64,000 bases of DNA from an uncultured Clostridia bacterium (lineage in GTDB: Bacteria > Bacillota > Clostridia > Christensenellales > Borkfalkiaceae), in assembly GCA_944341075.1 (NCBI GenBank), contig CALVLV010000003.1, positions 37,470 through 101,469 on the forward strand, in the 5' to 3' direction. The position numbers and the translations under genes were made by a program. Below the pieces are notes generated by a model, which worked only from the letters and a program-made list of their open reading frames with translations, searched no databases and was not told the DNA's origin. Positions within the stretch are counted from its first letter, which is position 1. Each line of letters opens with the position of its first letter. Positions 1,776-59,288 of this stretch are shown here, one piece after another.

Positions 1776-1862
1776 ACATATTCTCCTTATAAAATCAATT
1801 GGTATATAAAAGTCTTTTAAATATAAAATACATGCGCATATATGCCGCAACTATTTGTGTTT

Positions 1863-2264: not shown

Positions 2265-2343
2265 AAATGTGCCCTCCGTTTTTTAATTGCACCCGCAATA
2301 TGGCCGTTTTACTGTATTTTTGTATGCGTTATTTTTAACGTGC

Positions 2344-2664: not shown

Positions 2665-2782
2665 TTCCGCTCCTTGCAGTATTTTTATGCAAATTTACTT
2701 TGTGTGCGGCTTAAGCCGCCGAGGGGGCAAATAATAGCGGGTGACGGCAACAGTACCGCCACCCGCCGTCTGTGCGGATAAA

Positions 2783-3922: not shown

Positions 3923-4768
3923 TTATTTGGCTATAAACAGCACGCCCAGCGTGTTTTTGCCGCAGTGGCCGGTTACAACGCCGCCCGCCACAGTTTCGTG
4001 TATCTCGTCAAAATCAAAGGTGTTTTCCACCTGTTCGCGCACCATGTCTACAACTTCCTTCTCGCAACAGCTGTGCGTTATAAAACAGCGCGTTTTGTCG
4101 TATTCGGGGTATTCGGCGGCAATGTCGTTCACATAATTTTTAAGGCACCTGGTAAGGCTGCCCATGTATTTTTTTGAAGCGTAAAGCTGGCCGTCCTTCA
4201 TCTCTATCATGGGGTGAAGTTTTAAAACTTTTGCCCCCATAAGCGCCGCCAGCGAACATCTTCCGCCCTTGTGCAGGTATTCCAGCGAATCGGGCACGAA
4301 CGATGTGTTTACCTTTGGCCTGAGCTCGTTCACCGTGCTTACTATCTCGTCTGGCGACTTGCCCTCTGCGGCAAGATCGCATGCCTTCAGTACAAGCAAC
4401 CCCTGCCCGGTAGAAAGGGCAAGGCTGTCTATCACGCGCACCTTTTTCCCGAACCTCTTTGCCGCCTCGGTGGCGTTGCGGTTGGTGACCGAGGCCTTTG
4501 AGGAGATGTTGAAGTGTATCACGCAGTCGCAGTCTTCAAGGTATGCCTTAAACCGCTCTGCATATTCTTCCTCGGTGCAGGCCGCCGTCTTGGGCAGAGT
4601 CTTTGTTGCGGCAACGTAGTCAAATATCTGTTGCGGCGTAATGTCTACGCCGTCGGAGTACACTTTGTCGCCGAGTATTACCGAAAGTGGTATTATGCCA
4701 ACATTATAGCGCTGTATAAGCTCGTTGCCGAGGTCGCAGGTAGAGTCAGAAGATATCTTTATTTTCAT
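3923..4768 (-). CDS. DegV family fatty-acid-binding protein
   Basis: 281 residues, the usual DegV length. The N-terminus MKIKISSDSTCDLG carries the conserved SDST motif whose Ser/Thr contacts the fatty-acid carboxylate. The middle part (DSLALSTGQGLLVLKAC) and the segment SLEYLHKGGRCS are hallmark DegV blocks. Members such as FakB present fatty acids to the kinase FakA; no FakA homologue is in the window. GGAGG lies 6-7 bases before the ATG. A consensus promoter with an inverted repeat around its -10 box lies upstream (4800-4851). Family certain; ligand unknown. Confidence 0.93.
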   Translation of the reverse strand: MKIKISSDSTCDLGNELIQRYNVGIIPLSVILGDKVYSDGVDITPQQIFDYVAATKTLPKTAACTEEEYAERFKAYLEDCDCVIHFNISSKASVTNRNATEAAKRFGKKVRVIDSLALSTGQGLLVLKACDLAAEGKSPDEIVSTVNELRPKVNTSFVPDSLEYLHKGGRCSLAALMGAKVLKLHPMIEMKDGQLYASKKYMGSLTRCLKNYVNDIAAEYPEYDKTRCFITHSCCEKEVVDMVREQVENTFDFDEIHETVAGGVVTGHCGKNTLGVLFIAK

Positions 4769-4851: not shown

Positions 4852-4952
4852 CATTCCCCGCAAAAATAAGTTTGCTTTCATGAAAAAATCACATTACTTA
4901 TTGCCTTGCCGCTATTGCATTATTTATTGATTTTCGGTTTACGAATGAATTC

Positions 4953-5046
4953 AAATTTTGGGGCAGGATTGGGGGCATAAAATGTAATTTGCCTCAAAAA
5001 AGCCCATATAATGTAGTTGACAGCAGCGTTTTAACGCTATATAATA
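4953..5046 (+). repeat. Copy of the island right end, with consensus promoter
   Basis: About 70 bp (4953-5022) match 17602-17670 with a single inserted G. Both copies hold two GGGGCA repeats 11-12 bp apart and a perfect promoter, here TTGACA (5017-5022), 17 bases, TATAAT (5040-5045). The spacer sequence differs between copies but CGCTATATAAT is shared. The promoter reads to the right, towards the truncated riboswitch piece at 5180-5210. It may be the native ribU promoter or the right end left behind by an earlier island. Confidence 0.8.
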
Positions 5047-5055
5047 AATTTGCAG

Positions 5056-5170
5056 AAAAATAGTGCCGAAACGCGGTAGCACGAATTTAGTTCGGGCGTA
5101 TAGCCGCGTTACGACAGCTTTTGCCTCACGGAAAAAGATTTTGCCGCAGGCAAAAGATTTTTCGTGAACA
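5056..5170. repeat. Dispersed palindromic repeat (copy 1)
   Basis: Contains CTCACGGAAAAAGATTTTG followed by its imperfect inverse ending in AAAAGATTTTTCGTGAA. The same block recurs at about 54649-54693. It separates the left promoter copy from the riboswitch fragment, whereas the right copy of the island boundary lacks it. Confidence 0.6.
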
Positions 5171-5179
5171 TCGTTTTAG

Positions 5180-5210
5180 AGTTAGTTCTTTGGGGCGGGG
5201 TGCAATTCCC
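5180..5210 (+). repeat. Putative attL: truncated FMN riboswitch 5' end
   Basis: 31 bp identical to 17709-17739, which is the 5' strand of the FMN riboswitch (ending GGGGTGCAATTCCC). Here the riboswitch stops dead and unrelated sequence follows. The repeat lies 126 bp from the integrase stop codon, as expected for an attachment-site core next to int. Confidence 0.7.
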
Positions 5211-5228
5211 GAGTAAATCACTGATTTT

Positions 5229-5270
5229 GCCCGTTTTTGAGCTAAAAATGCTCAAAAACGGGCTTTTTTA
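5229..5270 (+). terminator. Intrinsic terminator at the island left end
   Basis: Perfect 14-bp stem GCCCGTTTTTGAGC / GCTCAAAAACGGGC around TAAAAAT, then TTTTTTA. It would end any transcript from the promoter at 5017-5045 before it runs antisense into the integrase gene, giving an RNA of roughly 220 nt. Confidence 0.85.
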
Positions 5271-5307
5271 TGCCATTTTTATGAGCTCAGATTTTGACTT
5301 TTACAAT

Positions 5308-5335
5308 TTTCGGGGCATATTTCGGGGCATAAAAT
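5308..5335. repeat. Tandem 12-bp repeats beside int (possible integrase arm sites)
   Basis: TTTCGGGGCATA occurs twice head to tail at 5308-5319 and 5320-5331, followed by AAAT. The related pattern TTGGGGCA...TTGGGGCATAAAAT appears at 17605-17631 and at 4956-4983. Repeats at both ends in this arrangement resemble arm-type integrase sites; the role is inferred. Confidence 0.5.
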
Positions 5336-6547
5336 TCAGTAATTGAGCTTCTGCGCCTCGGCATATAGATATTCGTCCGACAGGTCTGTGTAAGCCTTTG
5401 CAAGCGCGCCCGCAGAGTGTCCCATGAACTCGTCCCTCGCGGCGTCGGCAACTCCGCACTCGCGGCACCTCGTGTAAAAGGTGGTGCGCAAATCGTACAG
5501 TTTGTGCCCTTTAATGTGCCTGTTCATGTGCGTTCTCATGCTCTCCACATAGGGGAAGTTTAGTTCGCTCACGCCTTCAAGGTATGGCTTCAACATCGGC
5601 GAAATTGCAATGCGCTTGTATTCAACTTTTTTGCTCTTGCGCTTGCTGTTTACGGCAATTATAAAGTCGCCTTCAATGCGTGCAGTCTTGTACTCGTTGG
5701 GGCGCATCCCTGTGTACAGAGCCACAGCAAAGGGGATGAGGTAGTTGGTGCCTTTCAACCCTTCAAGCAACGCTTTCTCTTCATCTTTGGTAAGCGCCTT
5801 GCCGTGTTCGCGCTCGTGCTGGGTGTGCACGACGGTCGTAATGGGGTTACGCTCTACAATGTTGTGCGCTATCGCCATTTTGAAGATTTGGTTTAAAAGT
5901 GAATGAACTTCGTCCGCCGTCTTGCCCATACCCTGTTCGGTGTACTTGTCAAGCAGTTTCTGGCACTGCCCCGTCGTAATGCTCCTGATTGGCACATCTT
6001 TAAAGTGCGGGGCAATGTGCTTGTTGTATCTGTACAAATCACCTTTATAGGTCTCGGGCGACACCTTTTTCTTCTTGAAGTTTTCAAAGTAGTACATTGC
6101 AAACCCGTTGAAGGTGGTGGGGACTTTCTGCTGTTCGTCCTGCCTGTCGGCGTTTTTGAGTGCTTCGATAAACTTTTCCTTGGCTTTTTCCAGATCGTTG
6201 CTCGAAACGGAAATGTTGTATCCGTCTCTGCGGTAGCGGATTTCGTAGTTTACCGTCTTTTTGCCGCTCTTGCGCCTGCGGCATCTCACAAGCCTGTCGT
6301 TTAAAATAAATTGTTTTCTGAATTGTATCGGCATCTTTGATAATTCCTTTTTAGTGAATTTCAAAGGATGCGATTTACGCTTGTCGGTATTTTTGTCATC
6401 TTCGCCGTCGTTGCTGTCAACGAGTTCGGAAAGTTTTTCAACTGTAATGGTATTAGCTGCCATCTCAAGTAAAGCTTTTCTCTGCTCGTCAGAACATTCA
6501 ACGGCGGTTATAAAGTTAAAAATTTCAAGTAATTGTTCTCGGGTCAT
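5336..6547 (-). CDS. Tyrosine recombinase / phage-type integrase
   Basis: 403 residues. An N-terminal region of about 150 residues includes an arm-binding-like part (RRKSGKKTVNYEIRYRRDGYNISVS). A SAM-like core-binding domain covers about 155-245, and the catalytic domain follows. The catalytic set is visible: Arg in ALYTGMRPNE, LYDLRTTF (the H-x-x-R box with Tyr in place of the usual His), His in FMGHSAG, and a nucleophile Tyr in AKAYTDLSDEY. Its gene abuts the left attachment repeat, so it probably catalyses island excision and integration. The promoter at 6577-6605 and the GGAGG before the ATG look functional. No excisionase gene is obvious. Confidence 0.92.
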   Translation of the reverse strand: MTREQLLEIFNFITAVECSDEQRKALLEMAANTITVEKLSELVDSNDGEDDKNTDKRKSHPLKFTKKELSKMPIQFRKQFILNDRLVRCRRRKSGKKTVNYEIRYRRDGYNISVSSNDLEKAKEKFIEALKNADRQDEQQKVPTTFNGFAMYYFENFKKKKVSPETYKGDLYRYNKHIAPHFKDVPIRSITTGQCQKLLDKYTEQGMGKTADEVHSLLNQIFKMAIAHNIVERNPITTVVHTQHEREHGKALTKDEEKALLEGLKGTNYLIPFAVALYTGMRPNEYKTARIEGDFIIAVNSKRKSKKVEYKRIAISPMLKPYLEGVSELNFPYVESMRTHMNRHIKGHKLYDLRTTFYTRCRECGVADAARDEFMGHSAGALAKAYTDLSDEYLYAEAQKLNY

Positions 6548-6863
6548 TTCCTCCTGTTGTTTTGTATTCTGCGGTTATTGTATCATATACAGCCGCAAAG
6601 TTCAAGCTCCTTTGTTAAATTGTTCATCGAATGGCGGGTATCATCCCGCCAGCTTAAGCAATTACATTGTACACCGTTTTTGGGGAAAATAATAGCGCAT
6701 TTATATACCCAAAACCGCAACTAGTGTTGACAAAACCGAAACAAATAGCACCTTTTGTTGAATTGCTGACACAAACCGCACCATAGCGGTATGTTAAAGG
6801 TGCGGTTGCTTAGTGTTAAGTTTTAGATGCGTAATTTTATTGGATTTTACACAAATTGACAAG
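6548..6863. promoter_or_regulatory. Intergenic region with int promoter and two hairpins
   Basis: 315 bp without a convincing gene. The minus-strand promoter for int is TTGAAC (6600-6605), 17 bases, TACAAT (6577-6582). Hairpins: TGGCGGG/CCCGCCA at 6632-6651 and AACCGCACC/GGTGCGGTT at 6774-6807, the second just after the end of the regulator gene. Confidence 0.55.
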
Positions 6864-7529
6864 TTAAGTAGTTAATAGCGTCCTTTCATAAGCATTATAC
6901 TTCTGTCTTATACGCAGTTTTCTGTATCTTACTCCGTGTATGGTAATGCCGAGTTCCGCAGCGATTTCGGAGCGTTTCATTTTGTTCATGCAGCAGTTGA
7001 GGGTTTCGAGTTCTGACTCTGTCAAATGTAAATTTTCAAGTAGTTTATCCGCTTTTGCGTAATCCTCAGTTTTATCTTCAAAGTAGTCGCGCGGGTCGGG
7101 AATGTCGTGCTTGTTGCTAAGTTCAAACTGCCTGTCGCGAGCAATATCTTTGCGGAAGTGCATAAGTTCTTTATCTACGGCGCGGTAGCAGGCGGTTTTT
7201 ATCGTTATGTACTTGCCGTTTCTGTCTTTGCCGTAGATATCGCTTACAAACATTCCCTTGAACTGATACAGAAAGCAGATTGCAAGTTGGGCGTAATCAT
7301 ATCCGTCTGTGATTGTGTAGTCGATTTGAGAAATATGGTTAAGGTCTTTGACTAAACCATTGTATAGCTTGCTTACAACTTCAAAGTCATACTGCATTAC
7401 GTTACGTAGAGCTTGCAAAGCTATCATTTCGCCCATGAGTTTTACATTATCGTCCGAGATGGGTTCTGCAAACAGTTGACCTTCGTTCGCATATTTACCT
7501 TTCGAGAGCTTTGTAACCAACATTTTCAT
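6864..7529 (-). CDS. Sigma-70-like / helix-turn-helix regulator of the island
   Basis: 221 residues. The central part (about 60-130) is helical and resembles sigma factor region 2-like proteins of mobile elements. The C-terminus (about 165-215) reads LTESELETLNCCMNKMKRSEIAAELGI, a region-4 type helix-turn-helix. GGAGG lies 8 bases before the ATG at 7529, and a second in-frame Met is at residue 3. It is transcribed towards int and may control element genes. It could instead be a LuxR-like regulator; the central match is weak, the HTH is clear. Confidence 0.65.
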   Translation of the reverse strand: MKMLVTKLSKGKYANEGQLFAEPISDDNVKLMGEMIALQALRNVMQYDFEVVSKLYNGLVKDLNHISQIDYTITDGYDYAQLAICFLYQFKGMFVSDIYGKDRNGKYITIKTACYRAVDKELMHFRKDIARDRQFELSNKHDIPDPRDYFEDKTEDYAKADKLLENLHLTESELETLNCCMNKMKRSEIAAELGITIHGVRYRKLRIRQKYNAYERTLLTT

Positions 7530-7717
7530 TTGAATTGCCTCCGTGAGTAATTTTGCCTTTTACGGGCAAGAGGCAAAGGGCACGGGACGGTGAAAATGCT
7601 TAAATTTCGTGTTGTTTTGCGCAAGTCAACGGTAGCAAAGCCAAAATCGTTGCGTCTACAAGCCTTTAAAGGGGTCTGTAATGGTAGAAAGACCCATAGG
7701 ATGGGAAACCTCCTCAC

Positions 7718-7876
7718 ATGGACACAAACGAACGTTTAACGCGAATTTTAAGCGACGATTTTGCGGCCGTTGACTTGTGCAAGGAACCGTGCCAGACTGA
7801 GCCTCCCGGAAAAGGGAAAACACACGGAGGAGAGGTAAAACGAAAAAGAGCAACAAAAAAATACGCGCGGCGATGA
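7718..7876 (+). CDS. Possible small basic protein
   Basis: 52 codons starting MDTNERLTRILSDDFAAVDL and ending in a strongly basic tail (KRKRATKKYARR). No good ribosome binding site precedes the ATG, so this may be a remnant of an element gene or not coding at all. No family recognised. Confidence 0.25.
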   Translation: MDTNERLTRILSDDFAAVDLCKEPCQTEPPGKGKTHGGEVKRKRATKKYARR

Positions 7877-7994
7877 TAAGGCGGCGATTTGCAAGCGGGT
7901 CAGCGCAAACGCCGCCTCGTCGCCGCGGGTTTGTAGCTTTGTTTTCAATGGTCGGTAAGTTTGTCGTTCAGGCTGCCTGTTTAGTTTAATTAAA

Positions 7995-8057
7995 AGGCGT
8001 GAGCTTGTTGCGGCGGCGCTTTGCGCCGCCGCACTCGTCGAAGACAAGCTCACGCCT
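7995..8057. repeat. Nested inverted repeat
   Basis: Outer arms AGGCGTGAGCTTGT (7995-8008) and ACAAGCTCACGCCT (8044-8057) enclose an inner stem GCGGCGGCGC-TTT-GCGCCGCCGC. No T-run follows, so it is not a typical terminator. Confidence 0.8.
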
Positions 8058-8130
8058 AACTGCCACTTGGTTGATTTAACGACTGATTTTTATTGTTTGG
8101 TTGGCCTGTTTTCTGTCTGATTTTTGATTT

Positions 8131-8237
8131 GTGTGTGTGCTTGGTCGGCGCCGCGAGCGTAGCGAGCGGGTGACGGAATGGCGTCAGCCGTTCCGTCAGT
8201 TGCAGGCCGCCGCTTGTTATATACCAAGCACACACAC
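8131..8237. repeat. Long nested inverted repeat
   Basis: Perfect 15-bp arms GTGTGTGTGCTTGGT (8131-8145) and ACCAAGCACACACAC (8223-8237). Inside is a second stem, TGACGGAATGGC / GCCGTTCCGTCA with one mismatch, around GTCA. The arrangement predicts a cruciform or a branched RNA. Confidence 0.8.
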
Positions 8238-8366
8238 TACAGCCATTTGAGTTTTTCCGTTATAATTTTTTGCTTTATACTGCCCTCATATTCGCAGTTA
8301 AAGCCTTAAACGCAAAAGCTGAGGGCAATGCTGAGCGTTCATATTGCATATCGCTATGATTTGATT

Positions 8367-8413
8367 AAAAAGGGGGCGGAGCCGCACGATTTTGCGCGGC
8401 TCCGCCCCCTTTT
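8367..8413. terminator. Bidirectional intrinsic terminator
   Basis: AAAAAGGGGGCGGAGCCGC and its inverse flank an A/T-rich loop, with A-run and T-run on either side, so it can terminate on both strands. Confidence 0.8.
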
Positions 8414-8431
8414 CCGTTTCAAAAATATGCA

Positions 8432-8496
8432 GTAAAAGCGTACTTTTACCGTACACCTGACAATTTAGTCTTACGGTAAACATTTTACCATATAAT
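8432..8496 (+). promoter_or_regulatory. Operator-like repeats upstream of the recombinase-like gene
   Basis: GTAAAAG-CGTA-CTTTTAC (8432-8449), TTTTACCGTA (8444-8453), its inverse TACGGTAAA (8472-8480) and TTTTACCATA (8483-8492) are crowded before a TATAAT at 8491-8496. This suggests a regulated promoter about 80 bp upstream of the start codon; no good -35 box is seen, which would fit an activated promoter. Confidence 0.5.
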
Positions 8497-8576
8497 CAGC
8501 TATTTTGCAATACAAATCGTTTGGAAATTTTAGGTCAAAAAAAGTACACGTTTACAAAAAACATTGCGAGGCGTGA

Positions 8577-9167
8577 ATGGCAAGGTATGCATATGCGCGT
8601 GCAACGAACGGCGGACAGAGTGTTTTGAGGCAAATTCAGTGCTTTTCGCAGTTCGGTGTAGAAAAGGCAGAGATTTATGCGGACGAAAAACTTAATACGC
8701 GCACGGCATACGGCGATCTTTTGCAGACTCTTAAAGAGGGCGACCTGCTTGTTATAAAGTCGTTGACGGCGCTTGCCGATGGCTACGACGGCATGGCCAT
8801 CGAGTGGACGAGAATAACTTCGCTCGGCGTTGATATATGTGTGGCAGATATGCCGGCGGTGGATACCAGGCGTGGAGAGAACCGCGGCACGGTAATTGCG
8901 GCTGTTGCCCAGATGCTAAGTTTTTGCGCTGAAAAGGAGAGGGCGCACAGCACCTTGCAGGCCAAGGGGATAGAGGCCGCAAAACAGCGCGGAGTAAAGT
9001 TCGGCCGTCCGGCAAAGCAGTATAGCGAAGAGTTTATCGACGCTGTTAAGCGGTTCAAGGCGGGCGAGATAACATTAAAACAGGCCCTCGCCTTCACCGG
9101 CATGAAGCAATCAAGTTTTTACTACCACGTACACAAGTTGGAAATGCAGAACCGCTTTGCTGAATAA
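8577..9167 (+). CDS. Serine-recombinase-like protein lacking catalytic residues
   Basis: 196 residues with the resolvase/invertase layout: N-terminal domain (1-120), long helix with MLSFCAEKERA, then a C-terminal helix-turn-helix after KFGRPAK. The catalytic core is altered. The YARVST-type start is YARATN, so the nucleophile Ser is replaced by Thr. The usual D-R-x-x-R segment after the GDLLVIKS strand reads LTALADGYDG. The fold and DNA-binding part are kept, so it probably binds DNA without cutting it. It sits directly upstream of the glycan genes in the same direction and may regulate them. Confidence 0.8.
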   Translation: MARYAYARATNGGQSVLRQIQCFSQFGVEKAEIYADEKLNTRTAYGDLLQTLKEGDLLVIKSLTALADGYDGMAIEWTRITSLGVDICVADMPAVDTRRGENRGTVIAAVAQMLSFCAEKERAHSTLQAKGIEAAKQRGVKFGRPAKQYSEEFIDAVKRFKAGEITLKQALAFTGMKQSSFYYHVHKLEMQNRFAE

Positions 9168-9215
9168 CCGGGCGTTCGGTCGCCATTCATATAAAAATAC
9201 AAAAGGGAGAATTTT

Positions 9216-10418
9216 ATGAAGATAGCAGTAGTAGGCGTAGGCTATGTAGGTCTTTCAAACGCAGTGCTTCTGGCGCAGCACAACGAGGTGCTGGCTGTAG
9301 ATGTCAGCCAGGAGCGTGTCGATATGGTAAATGCCCGCAAGTCGCCCTTAGTCGACAATGAGATAGAGGAGTATCTTGCGAAAAAACCGCTCAATTTGCG
9401 GGCATCCGGCGACGGAAAGAAATTTTATAAAGAGGCGGACTATATCGTTATTGCTACGCCGACAAATTATGATGAGGAGACAAATTACTTCAATACCTCG
9501 TCTGTGGAGAGCGTTATCGAGGATGCGCTTGCTGTAAAGACAAATGCCTGCATAGTCATTAAATCGACTATACCTGTGGGGTATACCGTAGGCGTACGCA
9601 AGAAGTACGGGTATAAGAACATAATCTTTTCGCCCGAGTTTCTGCGCGAAGGCAAGGCGCTGTACGATAATCTGTACCCCGCGCGCATAGTCGTCGGGAG
9701 CGACCTTGCGGACGAAGAGCTGACGGAGAAAGCGAAAAAGTTTGCCGCGCTTCTTGCAGAGGGCGCAATCAAAAAGGATATACCGGAGTTTGTGATAAAC
9801 TCCACCGAGGCCGAGGCGATAAAGCTGTTCGCAAATACCTATCTCGCGCTTAGGGTGTCGTATTTCAACGAGCTGGATACCTATGCGGAAATGCGCGGGC
9901 TTGACACAAAGTCGATAATACAGGGCGTATGCCTCGACCCGAGGATAGGCGCAGGTTACAACAATCCTTCGTTCGGGTACGGCGGCTACTGCCTGCCGAA
10001 AGATACCAAGCAGCTTCTGGCGAACTTTAAGGACGTGCCCGAAAACTTAATTCAGGCGATAGTGGATTCAAACCGCACGCGCAAAGATTTCATTGCTGAA
10101 AGGGTGATGTTGAAGGCGGGATATCCCAATAAAAAAGACATAGTAGTCGGCGTATATCGCCTGACTATGAAGACCGATTCGGATAATTTCCGCCAGAGCG
10201 CCATACAGGGCGTTATGAAACGGTTGGAAAGTTACGGCGCGGAAATAATAATTTACGAGCCCGCGGCAAAGACGAACGAGCATTTCGGACACAAGATAAC
10301 CAAAGATTTGAAAGAGTTTAAAAAGAAGAGCGACGTTATAGTTGCCAACCGACTGTCGGAAGAGCTTTCCGACGTTATGGACAAGGTTTACACCAGAGAT
10401 TTATTCGGCAGAGATTGA
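9216..10418 (+). CDS. ugd: UDP-glucose 6-dehydrogenase
   Basis: Oxidises UDP-glucose to UDP-glucuronate with two NAD+. 400 residues, matching the short bacterial form. The N-terminal Rossmann motif is VGVGYVGLS (6-14). The catalytic Cys is residue 259 in [10 protein letters not shown], and the central segment includes [27 protein letters not shown] lies upstream of the ATG. It starts the glycan cargo, and its G+C content is near the chromosomal average, unlike the two genes after it. UDP-glucuronate would serve as sugar donor for an acidic surface polymer. Confidence 0.95.
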
Positions 10419-10461
10419 GCTCGGAGAGGGAATTATAGGGATTAATACGGAGTAAAAAATA

Positions 10462-12753
10462 ATGGGAAAGAAATTTAATAAGTCAAGAAAGAAGGTGAAT
10501 TTGATTGCAGAGGACAAGATTACCCCAAAAGTATCTGTTGTTGTCCCTGTATATAATGTTGATAAGGATTTAGAACGTTGCATAAAATGCTTGATTGGCC
10601 AAAGTCTAAGAAAAATAGAAATAATATTTGTAGATGATGCCTCAACTGATTCAAGCGTAGAAATAATTGATTCATATGCAAAAAAAGATAATAGAATTAA
10701 ACTTATACGCCACGAAAATAACTTATCTGCAAGTATATCTAGAAAAGATGGTGCAATGGCTGCAAATGGTGAATACACACTATTTGTTGATCCCGATGAC
10801 TCCTTGAAAAAAAATGCTTTAGAAGTGGCTTATTTGACTGCCAAAGAGAAAAATGTTGAAATATTACATTTTGGTACAAATGTAATTAATAATGGCGTTA
10901 CTGATAAACAAATTGAATGGTATAATAATTTTTCAAAACCTTATTTGGGATCCATTTATGGCGAAGAAGTTTTTAGAAAATGCTTTGAAACGCAAGATTA
11001 CCGATTTAATATTTGGAATAAATTGATTTTAACATCATTGTGTAAAAAAGCAATGAGTGTTCATACCGATGTTCCTTTACCCAAGGCCCAGGATTTATAT
11101 GCTTATTTTTTGATTGCTTATTTTGCAAAGTCGTACTATGGCATAGAAGATAAGTTATACAATTATTCGTTTGGTGGTGGGATAAGTGGCGGTAGAACTT
11201 TTACGGAAGAAAAGTTCAAGCGACATTGTACCCATGCGAATGTAGCATATTTTATTATTGACTTTTTGATTAAACAAAATGATTTGAAGAAATATTATGT
11301 CGCCGCGTTTCGTATAATTAATAATTTAATTAATGATAATGTTGCTAGTATCAAGGCTTGTGGTAAAGCAAAAGTAACGTTTAGTGCAGAGCAAATTTTT
11401 AACGAGTATTGGATTACTGGAAAATATATGCAGAATATGATCAATTTCGTTGAAGACAATAATAACCCCGTTTGCGCTCAGCTTTTATTTGAAATTAATT
11501 TTAAAATATTTAAAAATCTATCTGTTAAATCAAGGGGGGCGGTTCTTGCAAATTTGCTAAGGATGGAAGGACGGTATCCTAATAATATTGCCGAGTTATT
11601 AACAAAACTTGATATACAAAGTAAAGATTATATGTTCATGCAAACGATATATTCTGCTAAAAAATCAGGAATATATGGCGAGAATTATATCCCTATTTTT
11701 TTTGCTGCAAATGAAAACTATATGCCTTATTTAGGAGTTACGATAAATTCAATAATTAAGAGCTCAAATAATAATTTTATATACGATATTTATATACTAC
11801 ATTCGGGGATAAATAAATATTACATTTCCAAAATTGTTCAGCTGAATAGTGATAATATATTTATTCATTGTTTGAATGTGAATGACCTTATCAAGTCGCA
11901 GAAATTGTACACTAATAGGCATTATTCTGTTGAAATGTATTATCGTTTTTTAATTCCTGAATTATTTTTCTTCATTCAAAAAGTATTATATTTAGATTGC
12001 GATTTACTGGTTTTAGATAGTGTACACAAACTTTTTATGATTGATATGGAAGGATGTACGTTATGCGCAGCGCGAAATATACTTCACAATGAAATGTATA
12101 ATTATGTTGTCGATAAGCTGCAAGCTAATCCCAACAGGTATTTTAATTCGGGTGTATTATTAATAGATTGTAAATTGTTTTTAAAAAATGGAATTAAAAA
12201 TAAATGCTACAATTTTTTGAATCGTAATCTCGATTTGGCGTGTCCTGATCAGGATGCTTTAAATGTTTGTTGTGATTTGGTAAAATTATTACCATTAGAG
12301 TGGAATTTTCAATGGCATCATTTATTAAATACAAGTAAATTAGACAAATACCAATTAGTGCCTCCTGATTCATTATTATATGAAGAGGCTTTAAAAAAAA
12401 TTAAAATTGTTCATTATACATCCGATAAAAAACCGTGGAATTATTTAATGTCTGAATATTCGGATTTGTATTGGGATTATGTTAAGTCGTCTATTTTTAG
12501 TTTAGAAGTTTATTTTAAATATAGGGGGTTACACGATTCACTTGTTTTACGTGTGCAAGAATTAACGAAGCAAATTAATTCGTTTAAAAATCTTTATAAT
12601 CTAGAAGATCATAAAGATAGGAAGAAAACAAAAAATAAGGCTTGTTCAAATAAGTTTCTTTCTAAGTTTGGACATTACTTATATGAAAATGGAATATTAA
12701 ATACATTGCGACGAATTTTTTTTGGCCGTAACTGGGCAAATAGAAAAAAATAA
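10462..12753 (+). CDS. Two-domain glycosyltransferase, GT2 joined to GT8
   Basis: 763 residues. Residues about 24-330 form a GT-A family 2 transferase (VVPVYNVDKDLERC, VDDASTDSS, and the DxD-like VDPDD near 110). Residues about 408-690 form a family 8 transferase (IPIFFAANENYMPYLGVTI, the DxD in LDCDLLVLDS near 512, NSGVLLIDC, PDQDALN near 594 and a terminal HYTSDKKPW). A basic C-terminal tail may bind membrane. Such proteins add two different sugars to a growing glycan. The gene is strongly A+T rich, as is the next, and unlike the flanking cargo genes, so this pair was probably acquired separately. Confidence 0.9.
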   Translation: MGKKFNKSRKKVNLIAEDKITPKVSVVVPVYNVDKDLERCIKCLIGQSLRKIEIIFVDDASTDSSVEIIDSYAKKDNRIKLIRHENNLSASISRKDGAMAANGEYTLFVDPDDSLKKNALEVAYLTAKEKNVEILHFGTNVINNGVTDKQIEWYNNFSKPYLGSIYGEEVFRKCFETQDYRFNIWNKLILTSLCKKAMSVHTDVPLPKAQDLYAYFLIAYFAKSYYGIEDKLYNYSFGGGISGGRTFTEEKFKRHCTHANVAYFIIDFLIKQNDLKKYYVAAFRIINNLINDNVASIKACGKAKVTFSAEQIFNEYWITGKYMQNMINFVEDNNNPVCAQLLFEINFKIFKNLSVKSRGAVLANLLRMEGRYPNNIAELLTKLDIQSKDYMFMQTIYSAKKSGIYGENYIPIFFAANENYMPYLGVTINSIIKSSNNNFIYDIYILHSGINKYYISKIVQLNSDNIFIHCLNVNDLIKSQKLYTNRHYSVEMYYRFLIPELFFFIQKVLYLDCDLLVLDSVHKLFMIDMEGCTLCAARNILHNEMYNYVVDKLQANPNRYFNSGVLLIDCKLFLKNGIKNKCYNFLNRNLDLACPDQDALNVCCDLVKLLPLEWNFQWHHLLNTSKLDKYQLVPPDSLLYEEALKKIKIVHYTSDKKPWNYLMSEYSDLYWDYVKSSIFSLEVYFKYRGLHDSLVLRVQELTKQINSFKNLYNLEDHKDRKKTKNKACSNKFLSKFGHYLYENGILNTLRRIFFGRNWANRKK

Positions 12754-12774
12754 TTATGTGGAGCTAGTTTCTAT

Positions 12775-13791
12775 ATGAAAAATGAATTTTTTGAAAGACT
12801 TGAGAAATTAAAACGTGGTATGGAAGTAGCGGATCGTATTTGTGGTTATGATACGTCCGTTTGTTATATAATTATTAATCGTCATATTGGTGATTCCACT
12901 CGAGCATTTAAAGTTCTTAAATCAATTAGAGTATACTATGGGCTTGGGTCAAATCGATTCCACTTTAGTGATTCTACTGTTCATAAAGCTGTTTTTAAGA
13001 AAAAAAAATTAATTCAAAAAATTGTAGTTGTTACGACAAAATCCATTTCTGGGGTCGCAAAGTTATATTCTGATTATTATGATGAAATGATCATCTTAAA
13101 CAAATCCGATCTTGATGCTTTAGAGCTTTATGCTTTTTCTGGATGTGCTATACATGAAAACATATTCTTTGACGAGAATCCTAGACAGATGATTTCAAGA
13201 CACTGGAATAATGATGAGGGCTCATGGACACGTACGTTGATGTTTGGTATTACAGATTTAATGTGGGAACTGTGTCTTCCTAGCAATTTGCCTAAAGGAC
13301 AAATGAAAATTTCGAATACTAGTGTTAAAGAATGTGGCGAAGTGATTGAGCATTTTAATATAGATATTGCTAAGACAGTGATAATTTGTCCGATTGCAAA
13401 AAATTCTTCAATGTTAGCTCCTAACATATGGGAGAGTTTTGCTGATTTACTTATCGCAAAAGGATATAGGATTTTTACTAATGCTTTCGGAGAAGAAAAA
13501 ACGATAAATGGGACAGAACGCATAGAGGTTGATATTGATGTTATTGTCTGCTTGGCGAACATGGGCGTTAGAATAATAGGTGTACAATGTGGATTAATGG
13601 ATATAATTGTTAAAATATTACCAGAACATGTAACAGTTATTAATGTAATAAAAACTGACAAGGATAAACAATATGCGAAAAGCCGTGGAGCTATAAACGA
13701 AGTAAATCATATTAACAATGTAACCTACCTTCGTATAGAGCATTTTGAAGAAGATTATGTGCTTAAACTTTTAATGGATAACTTTCACTGA
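12775..13791 (+). CDS. GT9-like (heptosyltransferase-fold) glycosyltransferase
   Basis: 338 residues in a GT-B-like layout. The N-terminal part contains IINRHIGDSTRAFKVLKSI, as in ADP-heptose:LPS transferase relatives that begin with a glycine-poor IGD loop. The C-terminal part has CPIAKNSSMLAPNIWESFADLL and a nucleotide-site stretch IIGVQCGLMDII. It lies 21 bp after the GT2-GT8 gene and shares its low G+C content. It probably transfers a further sugar to the same glycan. Family placement rests on pattern only; the donor is unknown. Confidence 0.6.
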   Translation: MKNEFFERLEKLKRGMEVADRICGYDTSVCYIIINRHIGDSTRAFKVLKSIRVYYGLGSNRFHFSDSTVHKAVFKKKKLIQKIVVVTTKSISGVAKLYSDYYDEMIILNKSDLDALELYAFSGCAIHENIFFDENPRQMISRHWNNDEGSWTRTLMFGITDLMWELCLPSNLPKGQMKISNTSVKECGEVIEHFNIDIAKTVIICPIAKNSSMLAPNIWESFADLLIAKGYRIFTNAFGEEKTINGTERIEVDIDVIVCLANMGVRIIGVQCGLMDIIVKILPEHVTVINVIKTDKDKQYAKSRGAINEVNHINNVTYLRIEHFEEDYVLKLLMDNFH

Positions 13792-13803
13792 GGAGACAAG
13801 AAA

Positions 13804-15939
13804 ATGCAAATAGAACATATCATAGTGCAGGCAGGGGGAAAAGGAACGCGGATGCAGTACCTCACAAAGAACAAACCCAAGGCGCTGGTGCCCGTGGATA
13901 ACCTGCCGATGCTCTTTCATTTATTCAAGAAATATCCGGATAAGAAGTTTGTGATAATCGCCGACTACAAGGCGGATGTAATGAAAAAGTACCTCGCGGC
14001 GTTCGCCAAAGTGGAGTACATAGTGGCGGACGGTCGCGGCAAGCAGGGCACATGCGGAGGATTGAGTGAAGCGCTCTCATATATTCCCGAAAAAGCTCCG
14101 TTTATGCTCATCTGGTCAGATCTTATTCTGCCCGCGGAGTTTACTCTTCCCGAAAAGGACGGGGACTATGTGGGACTTTCCAAAGATTTTCCCTGTCGCT
14201 GGAGCTATAAGGACGGCAAGTTTGCGGAGGAGCGTTCCTCGGAGTACGGCGTCGCCGGACTGTTTGTATTCAAGTCCAAATCGGAGATAGCCGGCGTGCC
14301 CGAAGAGGGCGAGTTTGTGCGGTGGCTCTCCGGAAGGGGCATTAAATTCGGCACTATAGATCTGTATAAGACCAAGGAATACGGCCTTCTTTCCGAGTAT
14401 GACAAGGCGGAGGAAAGGAAAGAGGGCAGCCGTTGCCGCCCGTTCAACAGGATTGAAGAAAAGGGCGGCAAGATAGTAAAAGAGGGCATAGACGAACAGG
14501 GCCGCAAGCTGGCGGTTCGCGAAAAGGCATGGTATAAGTTCGTGCAGGAACACGGCAAAGGTAAGGCGGCCATACCTGAGATATACTCTTTCGAACCACT
14601 CACCATGCAGCGCATAGACGGGCGCAACATATTCGAGTACGAGCTTTCCGAGGACGAGCAGCGCGGAGTGCTTGAAAAACTGGTAAAGGCGCTTAAGGAT
14701 CTCCATTCCCTGGGTACGGCGCCCACAGATTATTTCAGCATAAACGAAGCATATCTCGGCAAGACGTTTGCGCGGCTGGAAAAGATCAGGGATCTTGTGC
14801 CGTTCGCGCATGACGAATACATCGTGGTGAACGGCAAACCCTGCCGCAACGTATTCTTTTATAAGGATGAACTCGCGTCGCTGTTCGCGCATTACCGCTG
14901 CAAACAATTTGAATTTCTGCACGGCGACTGTACGTTCTCAAACATGATGCTGGACGGGGACATGAATCCCGTGTTTATAGATCCGCGCGGCTATTTCGGA
15001 CATACCGAATTGTACGGCGACCCCAACTATGACTGGGCCAAGCTGTATTATTCCGTTGTCGGCAACTACGACAGGTTCAATTTAAAGAAATTCAGGTTGT
15101 CGATAAACGAGCACGACGTGGAGCTGGATATACAATCCAACGGATGGGAGCACCTTGAAGATTATTTCTTCGGGCTCATAGGCGATGATGTAAACCGCGA
15201 TTACATAAAGCTCATCCATGCGGTGATATGGCTTTCGCTCACCACATATGCGTGGGAGGACTACGATTCGATATGCGGCGCGTTCTACAACGGGCTCTGG
15301 TATCTCGAGGACATATTTGCGAAGTATCTCGAAGGCACAAAAAAGTTCAACGCGCCCAAGGTAAATCTCACGTTTGAAGAGACGCTTCGCATGCTCACCG
15401 ATTCGTTGCGCAGCATAGACGAGGATGTGTACAACAAATTGCTCGACGAGTGCGTGGAGACGCTCAGACGCGGCAACAAGATAATAGCCTCCGGCCTCGG
15501 CAAAAACGTGCCCATATGCGACAAATTCGTGGGTTCCATGCTCTCCATGGGGCTCAACGCCAATTTCCTGCACACCAATTCGGCCGTGCACGGCGATATG
15601 GGCATGGTGAAGAGCGGCGATCTCGTAATAATACTCACTAAAAGCGGCTCCACCGCGGAATCGGTGTACCTCGCCGACCTGCTCTCCAAGAGGCAGGGTG
15701 TAAACCTGTGGCTGTTGACGTTTAAAAAGCACAGCGTTATGAGCGAAAAGATGAAGTCGCTTGTGATAAACCTTGAGCACGAAGGCGATATGTGGAACAT
15801 AATGCCCAACAACTCAACGACGCTTAATTTAATAGTATTGCAGTCGCTTGCAATGAACATAGCCAAGAAGATGGGCGTGACGCTGGACGATTTTAAACCC
15901 AACCACCCGGGCGGCGCGATAGGGAACCAATTAAAATGA
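13804..15939 (+). CDS. Fusion: nucleotidyltransferase + APH-type kinase + SIS isomerase
   Basis: 711 residues with three enzyme domains. Residues 1-225 are a sugar-phosphate nucleotidyltransferase (VQAGGKGTRM, NKPKALVPV, acidic WSDLILP). Residues about 230-505 are an aminoglycoside/choline-kinase-like phosphotransferase, with HGDCTFSNMML near 374 and FIDPRG as metal site. Residues about 520-711 are a SIS domain of the KdsD/GutQ kind (ASGLGKN near 558, LTKSGSTAES, NHPGGAIG near 700). Together with the overlapping HAD gene this could supply every step from a ketose phosphate to an NDP-activated sugar or polyol. AGGAGA lies before the ATG. The product is inferred and not identifiable. Confidence 0.88.
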   Translation: MQIEHIIVQAGGKGTRMQYLTKNKPKALVPVDNLPMLFHLFKKYPDKKFVIIADYKADVMKKYLAAFAKVEYIVADGRGKQGTCGGLSEALSYIPEKAPFMLIWSDLILPAEFTLPEKDGDYVGLSKDFPCRWSYKDGKFAEERSSEYGVAGLFVFKSKSEIAGVPEEGEFVRWLSGRGIKFGTIDLYKTKEYGLLSEYDKAEERKEGSRCRPFNRIEEKGGKIVKEGIDEQGRKLAVREKAWYKFVQEHGKGKAAIPEIYSFEPLTMQRIDGRNIFEYELSEDEQRGVLEKLVKALKDLHSLGTAPTDYFSINEAYLGKTFARLEKIRDLVPFAHDEYIVVNGKPCRNVFFYKDELASLFAHYRCKQFEFLHGDCTFSNMMLDGDMNPVFIDPRGYFGHTELYGDPNYDWAKLYYSVVGNYDRFNLKKFRLSINEHDVELDIQSNGWEHLEDYFFGLIGDDVNRDYIKLIHAVIWLSLTTYAWEDYDSICGAFYNGLWYLEDIFAKYLEGTKKFNAPKVNLTFEETLRMLTDSLRSIDEDVYNKLLDECVETLRRGNKIIASGLGKNVPICDKFVGSMLSMGLNANFLHTNSAVHGDMGMVKSGDLVIILTKSGSTAESVYLADLLSKRQGVNLWLLTFKKHSVMSEKMKSLVINLEHEGDMWNIMPNNSTTLNLIVLQSLAMNIAKKMGVTLDDFKPNHPGGAIGNQLK

Positions 15940-16310
15940 AACAAATTATAACGCTTTCGCCGCTGGGTCACACGTGGATACTCGACCTTGACGGCACGAT
16001 AGTAAAGCATAACGGGTATAAGGAGGGCGGCGACGTCCTCCTGCTTGGCGCAAAGGAATTTATAGAAAGTCTTCCCGAAGGCGATATGGTGATAATAGTT
16101 ACTGCGCGCAAAGAGGAATATCGGGAGAAAACCGAAAAATTTCTCAGAGAAAACGGCGTGCGCTATGACCATATAATATTCGGTGCGCCGTATGGGGAGA
16201 GAATAGTAATAAACGACAAAAAGCCGTCCGGGCTTCCCGTCTCGGTTGCGGTAAATACAGAGCGCGACGAAGAGTGGAACGTTGAATATTATATAGAAGA
16301 GAATTTATAA
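15936..16310 (+). CDS. HAD-family sugar phosphate phosphatase
   Basis: 124 residues, a minimal capless HAD enzyme. Motif I is ILDLDGTIV (residues 16-24) with the nucleophile Asp, motif II is IIVTARK with Thr, and VINDKKPSG carries the Asp of motif IV. Its ATG overlaps the stop of the triple-domain gene (ATGA), which implies translational coupling and a shared pathway. It probably removes a phosphate from an intermediate made by the kinase or isomerase domains, as GmhB or KdsC do in heptose and Kdo synthesis; the actual substrate is unknown. Confidence 0.85.
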   Translation: MKQIITLSPLGHTWILDLDGTIVKHNGYKEGGDVLLLGAKEFIESLPEGDMVIIVTARKEEYREKTEKFLRENGVRYDHIIFGAPYGERIVINDKKPSGLPVSVAVNTERDEEWNVEYYIEENL

Positions 16311-16345
16311 TATCAAGTAGATAAATAGGTATAGGAGAAGAGGAG

Positions 16346-17398
16346 TTGAACCTCTCAATAATAATTCCCGTATATAACAAATCGGAATATCTGACAGAAT
16401 GTATTGAAAGCGTTCAGAGACAATCACTCAAAGATAGCGAAATTATCTGTGTGGACGATGGCTCAACTGATGGGAGTGCGGAACTGGTTTCGGAATTCCA
16501 AAAAACTGATGGCCGCGTTTGCCTCATAAGACAGCAAAATCTTGGCGCAGGTGCTGCTCGGAATGCAGGGGTCAAAGCGGCAAAGGGAGAGTATGTAGCT
16601 TTTCTCGATGCAGATGATTTTTATTCTTCCAAAGATACATTAGCTCGCATATATGCCGCGGCAAAGTCCAATAATGCACTCATTTGTGGGGGGTCGTTCT
16701 GCGAAATCCGCAGCGATGAACGCGTTATTCAATTTGACGGCGTTATGTCGGGCAATAAATTTGACGCGGAGGGATGGGTAGATTTTAAAGACTATCAGTT
16801 CGACTATGGCTTTTACCGCTTTATTTATAATCGTGATTTTTTGATTAAGAATAATCTGATATTCCCCGATTATCTTAGGTATCAAGATCCGCCATTCATG
16901 TTGCGCGCGTTTGATGCCGCGGGTAGGTTTTATGCCATACCTGATGTTACATATTGCTATCGCATAAATGATTGTCCGGTCAAATGGACAACCGAAAAAG
17001 TGCTGGACTTGCTGTGCGGCATTGAGGAAAACCTTAAATTTTCTGCCGCGCGCGGCTATGAACGGGTGCATGCGCTCAACTACTACCGTCTTTGCAATGA
17101 CTTTTGCGGTGTGATAGTTGATACCGCATTACGGAAGGACAGTACCGGTAATATACTTAAAAAGCTTGCAGATATGCAGTCGTCGGTTAATTTCGACATG
17201 ATAAAATCGAGTGAACTGTTTACCGACAAGGAAAACAAATTCAGTAAGCCGCTTTCGGAGTTGATACAAAAGTTGAGCGCACAGAGCGCACGGCTGCACA
17301 GCGAAGGGTGGTTTATCAACAAAAAACTGTTTCGTGTATATACCTGGCCTGTACGTATGTTAGGGAAAGCTTTAAGAGATATAAAGCATAGGAAGTAA
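16346..17398 (+). CDS. Family 2 glycosyltransferase
   Basis: 350 residues beginning at TTG (16346); GGAG at 16333-16336 gives a normal spacing and no ATG fits. The GT-A core is plain: IIPVYNKSEYLTECIESV, VDDGSTDGS, LGAGAARNAGV and FLDADD near residue 91. The C-terminal 130 residues are helical and basic and may hold it at the membrane. It is the last cargo gene before the right island boundary. The acceptor sugar cannot be read from the sequence. Confidence 0.92.
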   Translation: MNLSIIIPVYNKSEYLTECIESVQRQSLKDSEIICVDDGSTDGSAELVSEFQKTDGRVCLIRQQNLGAGAARNAGVKAAKGEYVAFLDADDFYSSKDTLARIYAAAKSNNALICGGSFCEIRSDERVIQFDGVMSGNKFDAEGWVDFKDYQFDYGFYRFIYNRDFLIKNNLIFPDYLRYQDPPFMLRAFDAAGRFYAIPDVTYCYRINDCPVKWTTEKVLDLLCGIEENLKFSAARGYERVHALNYYRLCNDFCGVIVDTALRKDSTGNILKKLADMQSSVNFDMIKSSELFTDKENKFSKPLSELIQKLSAQSARLHSEGWFINKKLFRVYTWPVRMLGKALRDIKHRK

Positions 17399-17601
17399 AG
17401 ATCACGGATATATATATTTTTTTTTGATATAAACATCATGGCCGAGCATTTTCCGGCCATGATGATTCGTAGTGTTAAGTTTTTTGTGTAATACCTGTAT
17501 GCAACTTGTCGCTGTATATTAGATTTGAAACACGTGTTGCAAAGTATCTGCATGTAAATTTCCGACAAGGTAATCGCATCTTTTGATTGAATAAATTTTA
17601 A
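17399..17601. other. Gene-free spacer at the island right end
   Basis: Holds a palindromic ATCATGGCCGAGCATTTTC / GGCCATGATGAT hairpin at about 17436-17466, probably the terminator of the glycan operon (weak T-run), then A+T-rich sequence with no gene. Confidence 0.5.
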
Positions 17602-17694
17602 AAATTTTGGGGCAGGATTGGGGCATAAAATGTAATTTGCCTCAAAAAAGCCCATATAATGTAGTTGACATAGCAAAAATTACGCTATATAATG
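17602..17694 (+). promoter_or_regulatory. Promoter of ribU within the island right-end repeat
   Basis: TTGACA (17665-17670), 17 bases, TATAAT (17688-17693): a perfect sigma-A promoter that starts RNA about 10 bases before the riboswitch. The segment 17602-17670 repeats 4953-5022, including the paired GGGGCA motifs. Confidence 0.85.
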
Positions 17695-17708
17695 TAGCTA
17701 CAATTTAA

Positions 17709-17739
17709 AGTTAGTTCTTTGGGGCGGGGTGCAATTCCC
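17709..17739 (+). repeat. Putative attR inside the FMN riboswitch
   Basis: 31 bp identical to 5180-5210. Here it continues into the rest of the riboswitch (ACCGGCAGT onwards), so the island end restores a complete riboswitch. Confidence 0.7.
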
Positions 17740-17868
17740 CACCGGCAGTGAGCGCGGTAGCAATAATTTGCTCATGCGTAAGTCTGCGAAGAGGCGGCGC
17801 CCTGGTGCCCTCTCCCGATACGGTGCGATTCCGTAACCGACGGTATAGTCCGGATGGTAAAAGAATTT
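17709..17868 (+). ncRNA. FMN riboswitch (RFN element)
   Basis: The conserved segments appear in order: GGGGCGGGGTGCAATTCCCC, ACCGGCAGTGAGC, GTCTGCGA, CCTGGTG, ATACGGTGCGATTCCGTAACCGACGGT and the closing AGTCCGGATGGTAAAAGAAT. It is followed by an expression-platform terminator and the riboflavin transporter gene, the classical arrangement. With FMN bound, the downstream terminator should form and lower ribU expression. Confidence 0.95.
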
Positions 17869-17885
17869 TTATCAAACCGCTTTTT

Positions 17886-17923
17886 GCGCGCCCTTAATGC
17901 ATATTAAGGGTGCGTTTTTTTTA
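17886..17923 (+). terminator. Riboswitch expression-platform terminator
   Basis: Stem around GCGCCCTTAAT / ATTAAGGGTGCG followed by eight T residues. It sits directly after the FMN aptamer and before ribU. Confidence 0.85.
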
Positions 17924-17978
17924 TGCGGAGCAAAAGGACTGCTTTAAAAAATATATTTTTCAAGGAGTTCTTTTTATC

Positions 17979-18758
17979 ATGGAACGTAAAAACACTCAGT
18001 TTTTTACACCCACGCGCATTGCGGTCATCGCAATGTTCGCCACCCTTGCGGGCGTGCTGTACGCCTTCGGCTTTCCCATCAACGTGGCCTTTCCCTTCTG
18101 GCTGGAGCTCAACTTTTCAGACATTCCCGCCCTTATCGGCACGTTTGCAATGGGGCCGCTTTCTGGCGGCATAATCGTATTCGTAAAAATACTCATCAAG
18201 CTCATCATAAAGGGCACCAGCACGATGTTTGTGGGCGAGCTTGCCGACCTTGTAATAGGACTTGCGTTCGTTGTGCCCGCAGGGCTCATCTACAAAAGGC
18301 ACCGCACATTCAGGGGTGCGCTTGCGGGAATGGGAGTGGGCACGCTGTGCTCGGTGGCGCTCTCCGTGTTTGCAAACTGGCTGATACTCGTGCCGTTCTA
18401 CCTTCAGCTGTTCTTTGGCGGGGATTGGAACAGCCTTATCGCCCCCATGCAGGCGCTCTTCGGCGACGGCGTAACTCGCGAAACCTTCTATAACTTCTAC
18501 CTGTGGGTATCCGTCCTGCCCTTCAACCTCATGCGTTGCCTTATAGCTGTGCTCGTCACCCTGCCCGTCTACAAGCGCATATCCGTGCTCATAAACAGAA
18601 TGAACGAAAGGTTTATGCCCAAGGCGCCCGCGGGCGGAGAGGGCGACGCTTCCGTCTGCGCCGCTACAAAAAAGCGCACCATAGTTACCGTTGCCGTGTG
18701 CGCGGGAGTGGTGCTCCTGCTGGTGGGCGGCGTGCTGTTAAGGTATTTCCTTTCGTAA
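17979..18758 (+). CDS. ribU: Riboflavin ECF transporter S component
   Basis: Substrate-binding membrane subunit of the energy-coupling-factor riboflavin importer. The start at 17979 has AAGGAG 11 bases upstream; the longer frame would begin inside the terminator. 259 residues with five to six membrane segments. The N-terminal part reads TRIAVIAMFATLAGVLYAFGFPI, and the family stretch ELNFSDIPALIGTFAMGPLSG contacts ligand. A Gly/Ala/Lys linker and one extra C-terminal hydrophobic helix (about 233-256) follow. Energising subunits EcfA/EcfT are not in the window. FMN control through the riboswitch supports the assignment. Confidence 0.93.
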   Translation: MERKNTQFFTPTRIAVIAMFATLAGVLYAFGFPINVAFPFWLELNFSDIPALIGTFAMGPLSGGIIVFVKILIKLIIKGTSTMFVGELADLVIGLAFVVPAGLIYKRHRTFRGALAGMGVGTLCSVALSVFANWLILVPFYLQLFFGGDWNSLIAPMQALFGDGVTRETFYNFYLWVSVLPFNLMRCLIAVLVTLPVYKRISVLINRMNERFMPKAPAGGEGDASVCAATKKRTIVTVAVCAGVVLLLVGGVLLRYFLS

Positions 18759-58799: not shown

Positions 58800-58876
<77 letters not shown>

Positions 58877-59225: not shown

Positions 59226-59288
59226 ACAAAAAAAACCGTGCAATAATCGGTTTTACATAACTGAGCGGATAAAACCGCAAAGTACTTT

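Follow-up and report, generated by a model that had tools for sequence, protein, structure and literature searches.

An integrative element of a clostridial genome that probably uses an FMN riboswitch as its attachment site

Introduction

Genomic islands in tRNA genes (tDNA islands) are the closest described systems to the locus studied here. In the passages cited from the Islander study (PMC4383910), a tyrosine integrase splits the target, the attachment site of the element (attP) regenerates it, and the displaced fragment stays at the other end. The dusA islands, as presented in the passages cited from PMC4482086, replace the 5' end of a target gene, have putative promoters before and after insertion, and carry diverse cargo with the integrase as their sole universal feature. 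Two prophages are also relevant: HK022, whose promoter transcribes the host gene torS next to the attachment site (PMC6814406, abstract), and a prophage of Enterococcus cecorum reported inside a PreQ1 riboswitch (PMC10117131, in the passages concerned). Here we analyse a stretch of 64,000 nucleotides (hereafter, the window) from an uncultured Clostridia bacterium of the Borkfalkiaceae (contig CALVLV010000003.1, positions 37,470 to 101,469). It contains a 12.5-kb island that, judging from the arrangement of its ends and relatives, is very probably an integrative element whose tyrosine integrase uses as bacterial attachment site (attB) the flavin mononucleotide (FMN) riboswitch upstream of an energy-coupling factor (ECF) transporter gene.

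The island resembles tDNA islands in its tyrosine integrase, split target, regenerated copy and displaced fragment; unlike in the islands of PMC4383910, the target is a riboswitch, and the element appears to rebuild a promoter and the 5' end of an RNA gene. The seven tRNA-targeting relatives that we mapped rebuild a 3' end, whereas here the displaced fragment comes from the 5' end and remains as a stub beside the integrase. In the replacement of a 5' end, the promoters and the variety of cargo it is closer to the dusA islands, which differ, in the passages of PMC4482086, by targeting a protein gene in Proteobacteria rather than a regulatory RNA. HK022 shares the element-borne promoter at the attachment site; it was shown to upregulate torS, and the abstract mentions no regulatory RNA (PMC6814406). 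The E. cecorum prophage shares the location in a riboswitch, but it concerns another riboswitch and host, and the passages on it are a passing mention, with a likely alteration of downstream expression and no analysis of attachment sites (PMC10117131). Among the matches listed from the open-licence PubMed Central literature, we noticed no other report of riboswitches as attachment sites and none of an FMN riboswitch as attB; the passages mentioning riboswitches in PMC8190616, PMC5644110, PMC6002521, PMC9239245 and PMC4993456 were irrelevant. A first-pass annotation of the window, made from its letters alone, knew of no established class of elements that uses a riboswitch as attB. This is roughly right, but since the PreQ1 prophage has been mentioned, such a target is not wholly unheard of.

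Results

A riboswitch split at the ends of an island

The island lies between two copies of an exact 31-bp direct repeat (Table 1), within 36 bp that are 97% identical (5175-5210 and 17704-17739). By our own arithmetic (about 4e-10), such an exact repeat is not expected by chance within 64 kb. Both copies correspond to the FMN riboswitch's 5' strand. On the right, the copy carries on into a complete riboswitch, matched by the Rfam covariance model over its full length (positions 1-138 of 138; gathering score 66.2 bits) and the only FMN riboswitch that Rfam finds in the window or in the whole 1.87-Mb assembly. The left one breaks off past the P2 hairpin, ahead of a terminator-like hairpin and the 3' end of the integrase gene; by eye, a comparable hairpin lies downstream of many related integrases. 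The first-pass annotation had described the repeats as this 5' strand, cut short beside the integrase on the left and complete on the right, and they are exact at the positions that it gave. It had also called the downstream gene ribU. The riboswitch does precede an ECF transporter S component (PF12822); no RibU-specific model of Pfam or NCBIfam matched this protein, and from the riboswitch its substrate is probably riboflavin. The in-frame ATG at 17979 may be the true start of the gene. Across the genus, the S components beneath FMN riboswitches form two groups, with 26-34% and 57-80% identity to that of the window.

Perfect TTGACA-17-TATAAT sequences occur on both sides of the island. The one at the right end was already noted in the first-pass annotation, and we found promoter-bearing right ends in four genomes; the left promoter, a second repeat, the doubled GGGGCA motifs and the tRNA ancestry discussed below go beyond it. 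The second repeat (73 nt, 88% identity, 4950-5022 and 17598-17670, forward strand) ends with the -35 box of the promoter. Doubled GGGGCA motifs occur, by the pattern used, at 4960, 5312 and 17609 of the window and nowhere else in it. They are present at both ends of all three complete elements described below (with one mismatch at one right end, that of G107), and within 400 bases upstream of a complete riboswitch they were found at 4 of 67 sites, which are exactly the four element right ends. By analogy with the arm-type sites of lambda Int, the doubled motif is a putative arm-type binding site of the integrase.

We propose that the target is the DNA of P2, the T-loop hairpin of the riboswitch, and that integration would split the riboswitch at this hairpin, leaving the promoter and 5' strand of the occupied locus on the integrase side, as a stub running into the terminator-like hairpin. 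The far end of the element would supply an identical 5' strand behind a consensus promoter of its own. The complete riboswitch and its gene would in this way be rebuilt under the promoter of the element.

The promoter sequences fit this layout. Of 51 riboswitch site records, in which the genomes G023, G056 and G046 are each counted twice, 49 have a TTGACA-17-TATAAT sequence no more than 280 bases upstream, allowing up to two mismatches, and the promoter is perfect at all eight riboswitch 5' copies at element ends. The -10 box lies 20-21 bases from the repeated core at the right ends of three elements (G000, G046 and G073), as at most native sites; at that of G107 the distance is 202, with an insert in between. 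With this layout, the displaced promoter would stay on the truncated copy and that of the element is placed to drive the complete one, with promoter activity predicted from the consensus match.

The same junction recurs with other cargo, and empty sites exist

A search of 93 genomes from the genus with the integrase (E-value threshold 0.001; G000 is the genome of the window) gave some match in 70 of them. The closest proteins are those of G107 (88% identity in this search, 91% over residues 27-403; this genome corresponds to Candidatus Coproplasma stercoravium), G073 (72%) and G010 (69-71%), and the next full-length relatives are at about 60% and below. In all four members of this clade a truncated FMN riboswitch lies beside the integrase in the same position and orientation. 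The complete riboswitch and the ECF transporter gene lie 13.4 kb (G107) and 16.1 kb (G073) from the truncated copy. Both ends are therefore visible in G000, G107 and G073; the contig of G010 ends within the element, and G046 shows a right end alone, before a complete riboswitch. The right ends of G107, G046 and G073 have the motif and promoter organised as in the window, and the cargo differs between elements.

When 34 riboswitch loci of 32 genomes were compared with the neighbours of the window's riboswitch, truncated copies were found in three (G107, G073, G010) and only complete ones in 31. In G057, G045, G003 and G082, a divergent degV is followed by one complete riboswitch and an ECF S gene, with no integrase in the stretch read, just as the window's locus should have looked prior to insertion. 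One of the nearest to G000, G057, has both of its flanks (identities of 86% for degV, 80% for the S component, 83% for TsaE). By their left flanks, G023 (glyA, then the riboswitch) matches G073, and G056 (degV, then the riboswitch) matches G010. The loci examined hold 72 distinct matches to the riboswitch 5' strand, 67 complete and 5 truncated, the latter being the four integrase-bearing sites and one hairpin of a viral contig that is not a riboswitch. Where a genome has two riboswitches (G082 and G052), both are complete. In the first-pass annotation, island-free loci and integrases beside truncated riboswitches (RFN elements) had been named as what to look for, and repeat pairs lacking an integrase, or related integrases at unrelated sites, as evidence to the contrary. 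Recurrence and empty sites now support its reading of the repeats as attachment sites: degV followed by one complete riboswitch was found in four genomes, the truncated RFN in four of four clade members including the window, and none of the loci read has both copies without an integrase. None of the three closest integrases is at an unrelated site; relatives at about 60% identity and below mostly end at tRNA genes, which we read from the tree below as a change of target.

Three element-free genomes (G057, G045 and G082) are closer to G000 by their TsaE (82-83% identity) than G107 is (79%), though between G000 and G107 the integrase identity is 87-91%. This suggests transfer of the element within the genus. 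In two loci (G015 and G002), degV and the riboswitch are about 3.3 kb apart. We considered these as decayed elements but found no support for the idea, as there is neither an integrase match nor a doubled motif within 400 bases of the riboswitch.

The riboswitch clade lies within a tRNA-targeting family

We labelled 72 integrases by the sequence beyond their stop codon, five of them by hand after reading the flanks (L082, L149, L031, L011, L071). The tree was built from 58, leaving out 3 duplicates, 6 fragments and 5 distant or contig-end rows (14 in all). The four riboswitch integrases form one clade with 100/100 support. The other 54 rows end at a complete tRNA gene (28), a tRNA 3' fragment (12), a 5S rRNA gene (8) or sequences not classified (6). 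The riboswitch clade thus lies within a family that mostly targets tRNA genes. The nearest group comprises 7 tRNA-Pro rows, the 8 5S rows and 3 unclassified ones. The 5S label does not hold at face value. In 7 of the 8 tree rows, and in one fragment row outside the tree, the 5S gene is followed by a tRNA-Asn 3' end (L138, L140, L149, L072, L080, L082, L152 and L029). In three of the eight (L140, L149, L080) the tRNA sequence stops at the T-loop, which makes the tRNA-Asn T-arm a likelier site than the 5S gene. No far-end copy of it was found in the stretches fetched. These elements look as if they carried a replacement 5S gene plus a tRNA 3' end.

The mapped cores place the two kinds of site at the same loop. 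Seven of 20 tRNA elements tested gave a second site copy, an identical block whose start falls between bases -2 and +4 of the T-loop and which extends to the tRNA 3' end. The three riboswitch cores start between bases -27 and -15 and end at base 8-9 of the P2 loop, and thus extend back towards the promoter. Hence both kinds overlap at the loop, where crossover would take place. The P2 loop, L2, is T-loop-like according to the passages cited on a solved structure (PMC3764141) and on sequence (PMC2258182). As DNA, P2 (GGGTGCAATTCCC) and the T-arm of tRNA-Pro (GGGTTCAAGTCCC) share 11 of 13 bases, and no other part of the riboswitch matches as well. Only 5 of the 127,976 13-mers on both strands of the window reach this score: the two copies of P2, the T-arm of a tRNA-Glu and two others.

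The integrase probably descends from relatives recombining in the T-loops of tRNA genes and shifted from there to the T-loop of the riboswitch, a change of site that would have followed the DNA similarity of T-arm and P2. As the short part of the target is now its 5' side, the element would carry a promoter and a 5' strand instead of a 3' end. More generally, the family may read the DNA of RNA T-loop hairpins and, given the T-loop fold common to tRNAs and riboswitches, have stepped from tRNA genes to a regulatory RNA, reversing the polarity of gene repair; we put this forward tentatively, as an idea somewhat more doubtful than not.

Weighing the evidence

Several observations weigh against the interpretation of the island as an integrative element with a riboswitch target, or against its link with tRNA genes. 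Its mobility is deduced from sequence; no excision product, circle or read was seen. The clade comprises four integrases of a single genus, and scans for the truncated riboswitch across the order (396 genomes) and the phylum (398 genomes) returned G000 alone, with a narrow exact pattern and samples from which the three other known cases were absent. The integrase has no match to PF00589 in the Pfam search and, with the presumably catalytic motifs TGMR and YDLR, shows Y in box II where H is expected, so that its activity is putative. Across the 72 integrases this position is Y (YDLR) in 52 and K in 7, while 13 did not match the motif used. For 13 of the 20 tRNA elements no second copy of the core was found within the DNA fetched, and in one (G097) the block begins only at T-loop base 4. 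The branch joining the riboswitch clade to the tRNA-Pro/5S group has a support of 89/96, below the mark of the tool, so that the exact sister group is not firm. The resemblance of P2 to the T-arm was found after the fact; over six tRNA arms tried it is 11 for two and 9 or 10 for the rest, and the P2 variant of G073 scores 8-10. Finally, the right end of the element is present a second time in the left flank of G000 (4950-5022). One clean insertion does not account for this, and we dropped it as the full history of this locus. The extra piece could stem from an earlier insertion or from gene conversion between the two promoter copies; it was not seen upstream at the left end of G107 or at the empty sites of G057, G045, G003 and G082.

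Other explanations were weighed as well. Homologous recombination between riboswitch leaders, or a segmental duplication, might have brought in the island with the integrase as a passenger; the longer similar stretch flanking it in G000 (the 73-nt repeat) and the leader repeats on both sides of G107 speak for this. Yet the ends of G073 share just a 24-bp identical run, which stops within one base of where the other elements stop; the junction is constant despite different cargo, the integrase is always at the truncated copy, and the seven tRNA relatives have the same architecture, all of which makes this account very unlikely. The right-end-like stretch at 4950-5022 implies that an earlier insertion or gene conversion happened in G000, and one could imagine that a tRNA-like or promoter site belonging to an earlier element served as the true attB, with a riboswitch 5' strand that travels along and mimics a target. 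But in three elements the right copy runs on into a complete riboswitch, and the empty relatives have a complete riboswitch between the same genes, leaving this a slighter chance still. An assembly artefact, in which a short repeat joined unrelated contigs, would be favoured by the draft state of the genomes (the three matched to named records are metagenome-assembled) and by junctions that are repeats; with three separate assemblies in agreement, the left end in a fourth, and flanking genes that match those of empty relatives, we regard it as the most remote of these accounts.

A different doubt concerns the origin of the element rather than its kind: the resemblance between T-loops might be coincidental, the integrase having reached the riboswitch by an unrelated evolution of its sequence specificity. 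The tree has a single riboswitch clade, so that one change of target is seen, and the match was recognised only afterwards, with lower scores for some tRNAs. Against coincidence, the position, the orientation towards the integrase and the overlap of the cores at the same loop all agree, and we consider it rather unlikely. The integrative element with a riboswitch target, as set out above, remains the interpretation that we adopt.

In terms of known classes, the island has an integrase beside one attachment site, direct repeats at both ends, a target regenerated at one end with a fragment at the other, and unoccupied sites in other species of the genus rather than in the same species; these are the marks of a site-specific integrative element. 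It is not a tDNA island, a class that we rejected, because its attB is an FMN riboswitch and not a tRNA or tmRNA gene; the tRNA genes of the window are confined to 58800-59364. No relaxase was found by Pfam in the nine island open reading frames (ORFs) searched, so it does not classify as an integrative and mobilizable element, and it may need helpers or be immobile. Genes for phage structure or packaging, which would indicate a prophage, were likewise absent from the nine ORFs by Pfam; three of the nine were also searched against PHROGs.

If the interpretation is right, a structured regulatory RNA is added to the kinds of integration site, with several occupied and empty sites behind it, and the likeness of tRNA T-arm and riboswitch T-loop hairpin as DNA would offer a sequence-level reason for the change of target. 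It also points to a mobile element that brings a replacement promoter and 5' strand while the host keeps a complete vitamin switch, with expression of the vitamin transporter in these hosts placed under an element-borne promoter. Truncated riboswitches beside integrases could serve as a screen for more such elements in riboswitch collections. Were the T-loop hairpin what the family reads, other T-loop RNAs, such as the adenosylcobalamin and thiamine pyrophosphate riboswitches, would be expected as further targets.

Features and cargo of the elements

Table 1. Features of the island and its flanks (positions in the window).
Feature	Position	Strand	Evidence or remark
degV-family gene, left chromosomal neighbour	3923..4768	-	NCBIfam TIGR00762
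Left-flank 73-nt repeat, with doubled GGGGCA (4960) and -35 box	4950..5022	+	88% identical to element right end
Displaced promoter TTGACA-17-TATAAT, upstream of truncated riboswitch	5017..5045	+	12/12 consensus bases; predicted activity
Left attachment-site copy: riboswitch 5' strand through P2, truncated	5180..5210	+	
Terminator-like hairpin followed by a T-run, between truncated riboswitch and integrase	5229..5263	+	14 pairs, 8 GC
Integrase-proximal doubled GGGGCA, putative arm-binding site	5304..5335	+	Same place in G107, G073, G010
Tyrosine integrase, 403 aa	5336..6547	-	PF14659, PF22022; phrog_1 integrase
Sigma-like or helix-turn-helix regulator	6864..7529	-	Weak TIGR02937 and GerE matches, below cut-off
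Serine resolvase/invertase-like protein	8577..9167	+	phrog_125 DNA invertase, 1.4e-19
Glycan cargo, in order: UDP-glucose/GDP-mannose dehydrogenase, GT2-GT8 glycosyltransferase fusion, unknown, NTP-transferase/APH/SIS fusion, HAD-like (below cut-off), GT2	9216..17398	+	Pfam
Element right end: doubled GGGGCA (17609) and replacement promoter TTGACA-17-TATAAT (17665-17693)	17598..17693	+	
Right attachment-site copy, running on into complete riboswitch	17709..17739	+	
Complete FMN riboswitch	17711..17869	+	RF00050, 98.4 bits
ECF transporter S component, beneath riboswitch	17910..18758	+	PF12822

The integrase is weakly similar to chains of the PDB named Integrase, e.g., 1z1g, which we take to be lambda Int. 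Among viral contigs, a scan with the integrase found one relative, at 33% identity, and six viral-contig loci returned by the riboswitch pattern scan were discarded, since the surrounding sequence showed hairpins without the rest of the riboswitch.

The name of glycan island given in the first-pass annotation is fair for the cargo of G000, with its sugar-nucleotide dehydrogenase, GT2 and GT8 glycosyltransferases and NTP-transferase/kinase/SIS fusion. The latter (13804-15939, 711 aa) joins a nucleotidyltransferase, an APH-like kinase and an SIS sugar-phosphate isomerase domain. The GC content at 10450-13800 is 30%, against 49-55% in the flanks, so that the cargo itself looks composite. The G107 element (L118 10492-15572) carries instead the anaerobic ribonucleotide reductase NrdD, a radical-SAM activase-like protein and a DNA methylase, and, by eye, a thymidylate-kinase-like ORF. 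That of G073 encodes a Mob_Pre relaxase (L119 3894-4967) and, at L119 6030-17991, a candidate defence protein (PDC-S37), a PDC-S31-like protein and a helicase matching HamB of Hachiman. Next to the right end in G046 (L121 3951-8609) are an AAA/M41 protein, which matches IetA weakly, and a kinase whose matches to Mad6/PD-T4-6 are likewise weak; by eye, the neighbouring ORFs look like PP2C and VWA proteins.

Some leaders have been lengthened. In the window, about 130 bp (5046-5175) lie between the displaced promoter and the truncated riboswitch, and a 46-bp part of this insert recurs at 54647-54692 (93% identity). The right leader of G107 and the leader of G108 share 223 bp (94%), and by eye that of G003 is also long. 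Further to the left, at 1416-3124 on the reverse strand, the window has four similar small genes in tandem with, by eye, an N-terminal zinc-ribbon-like CxxC motif.

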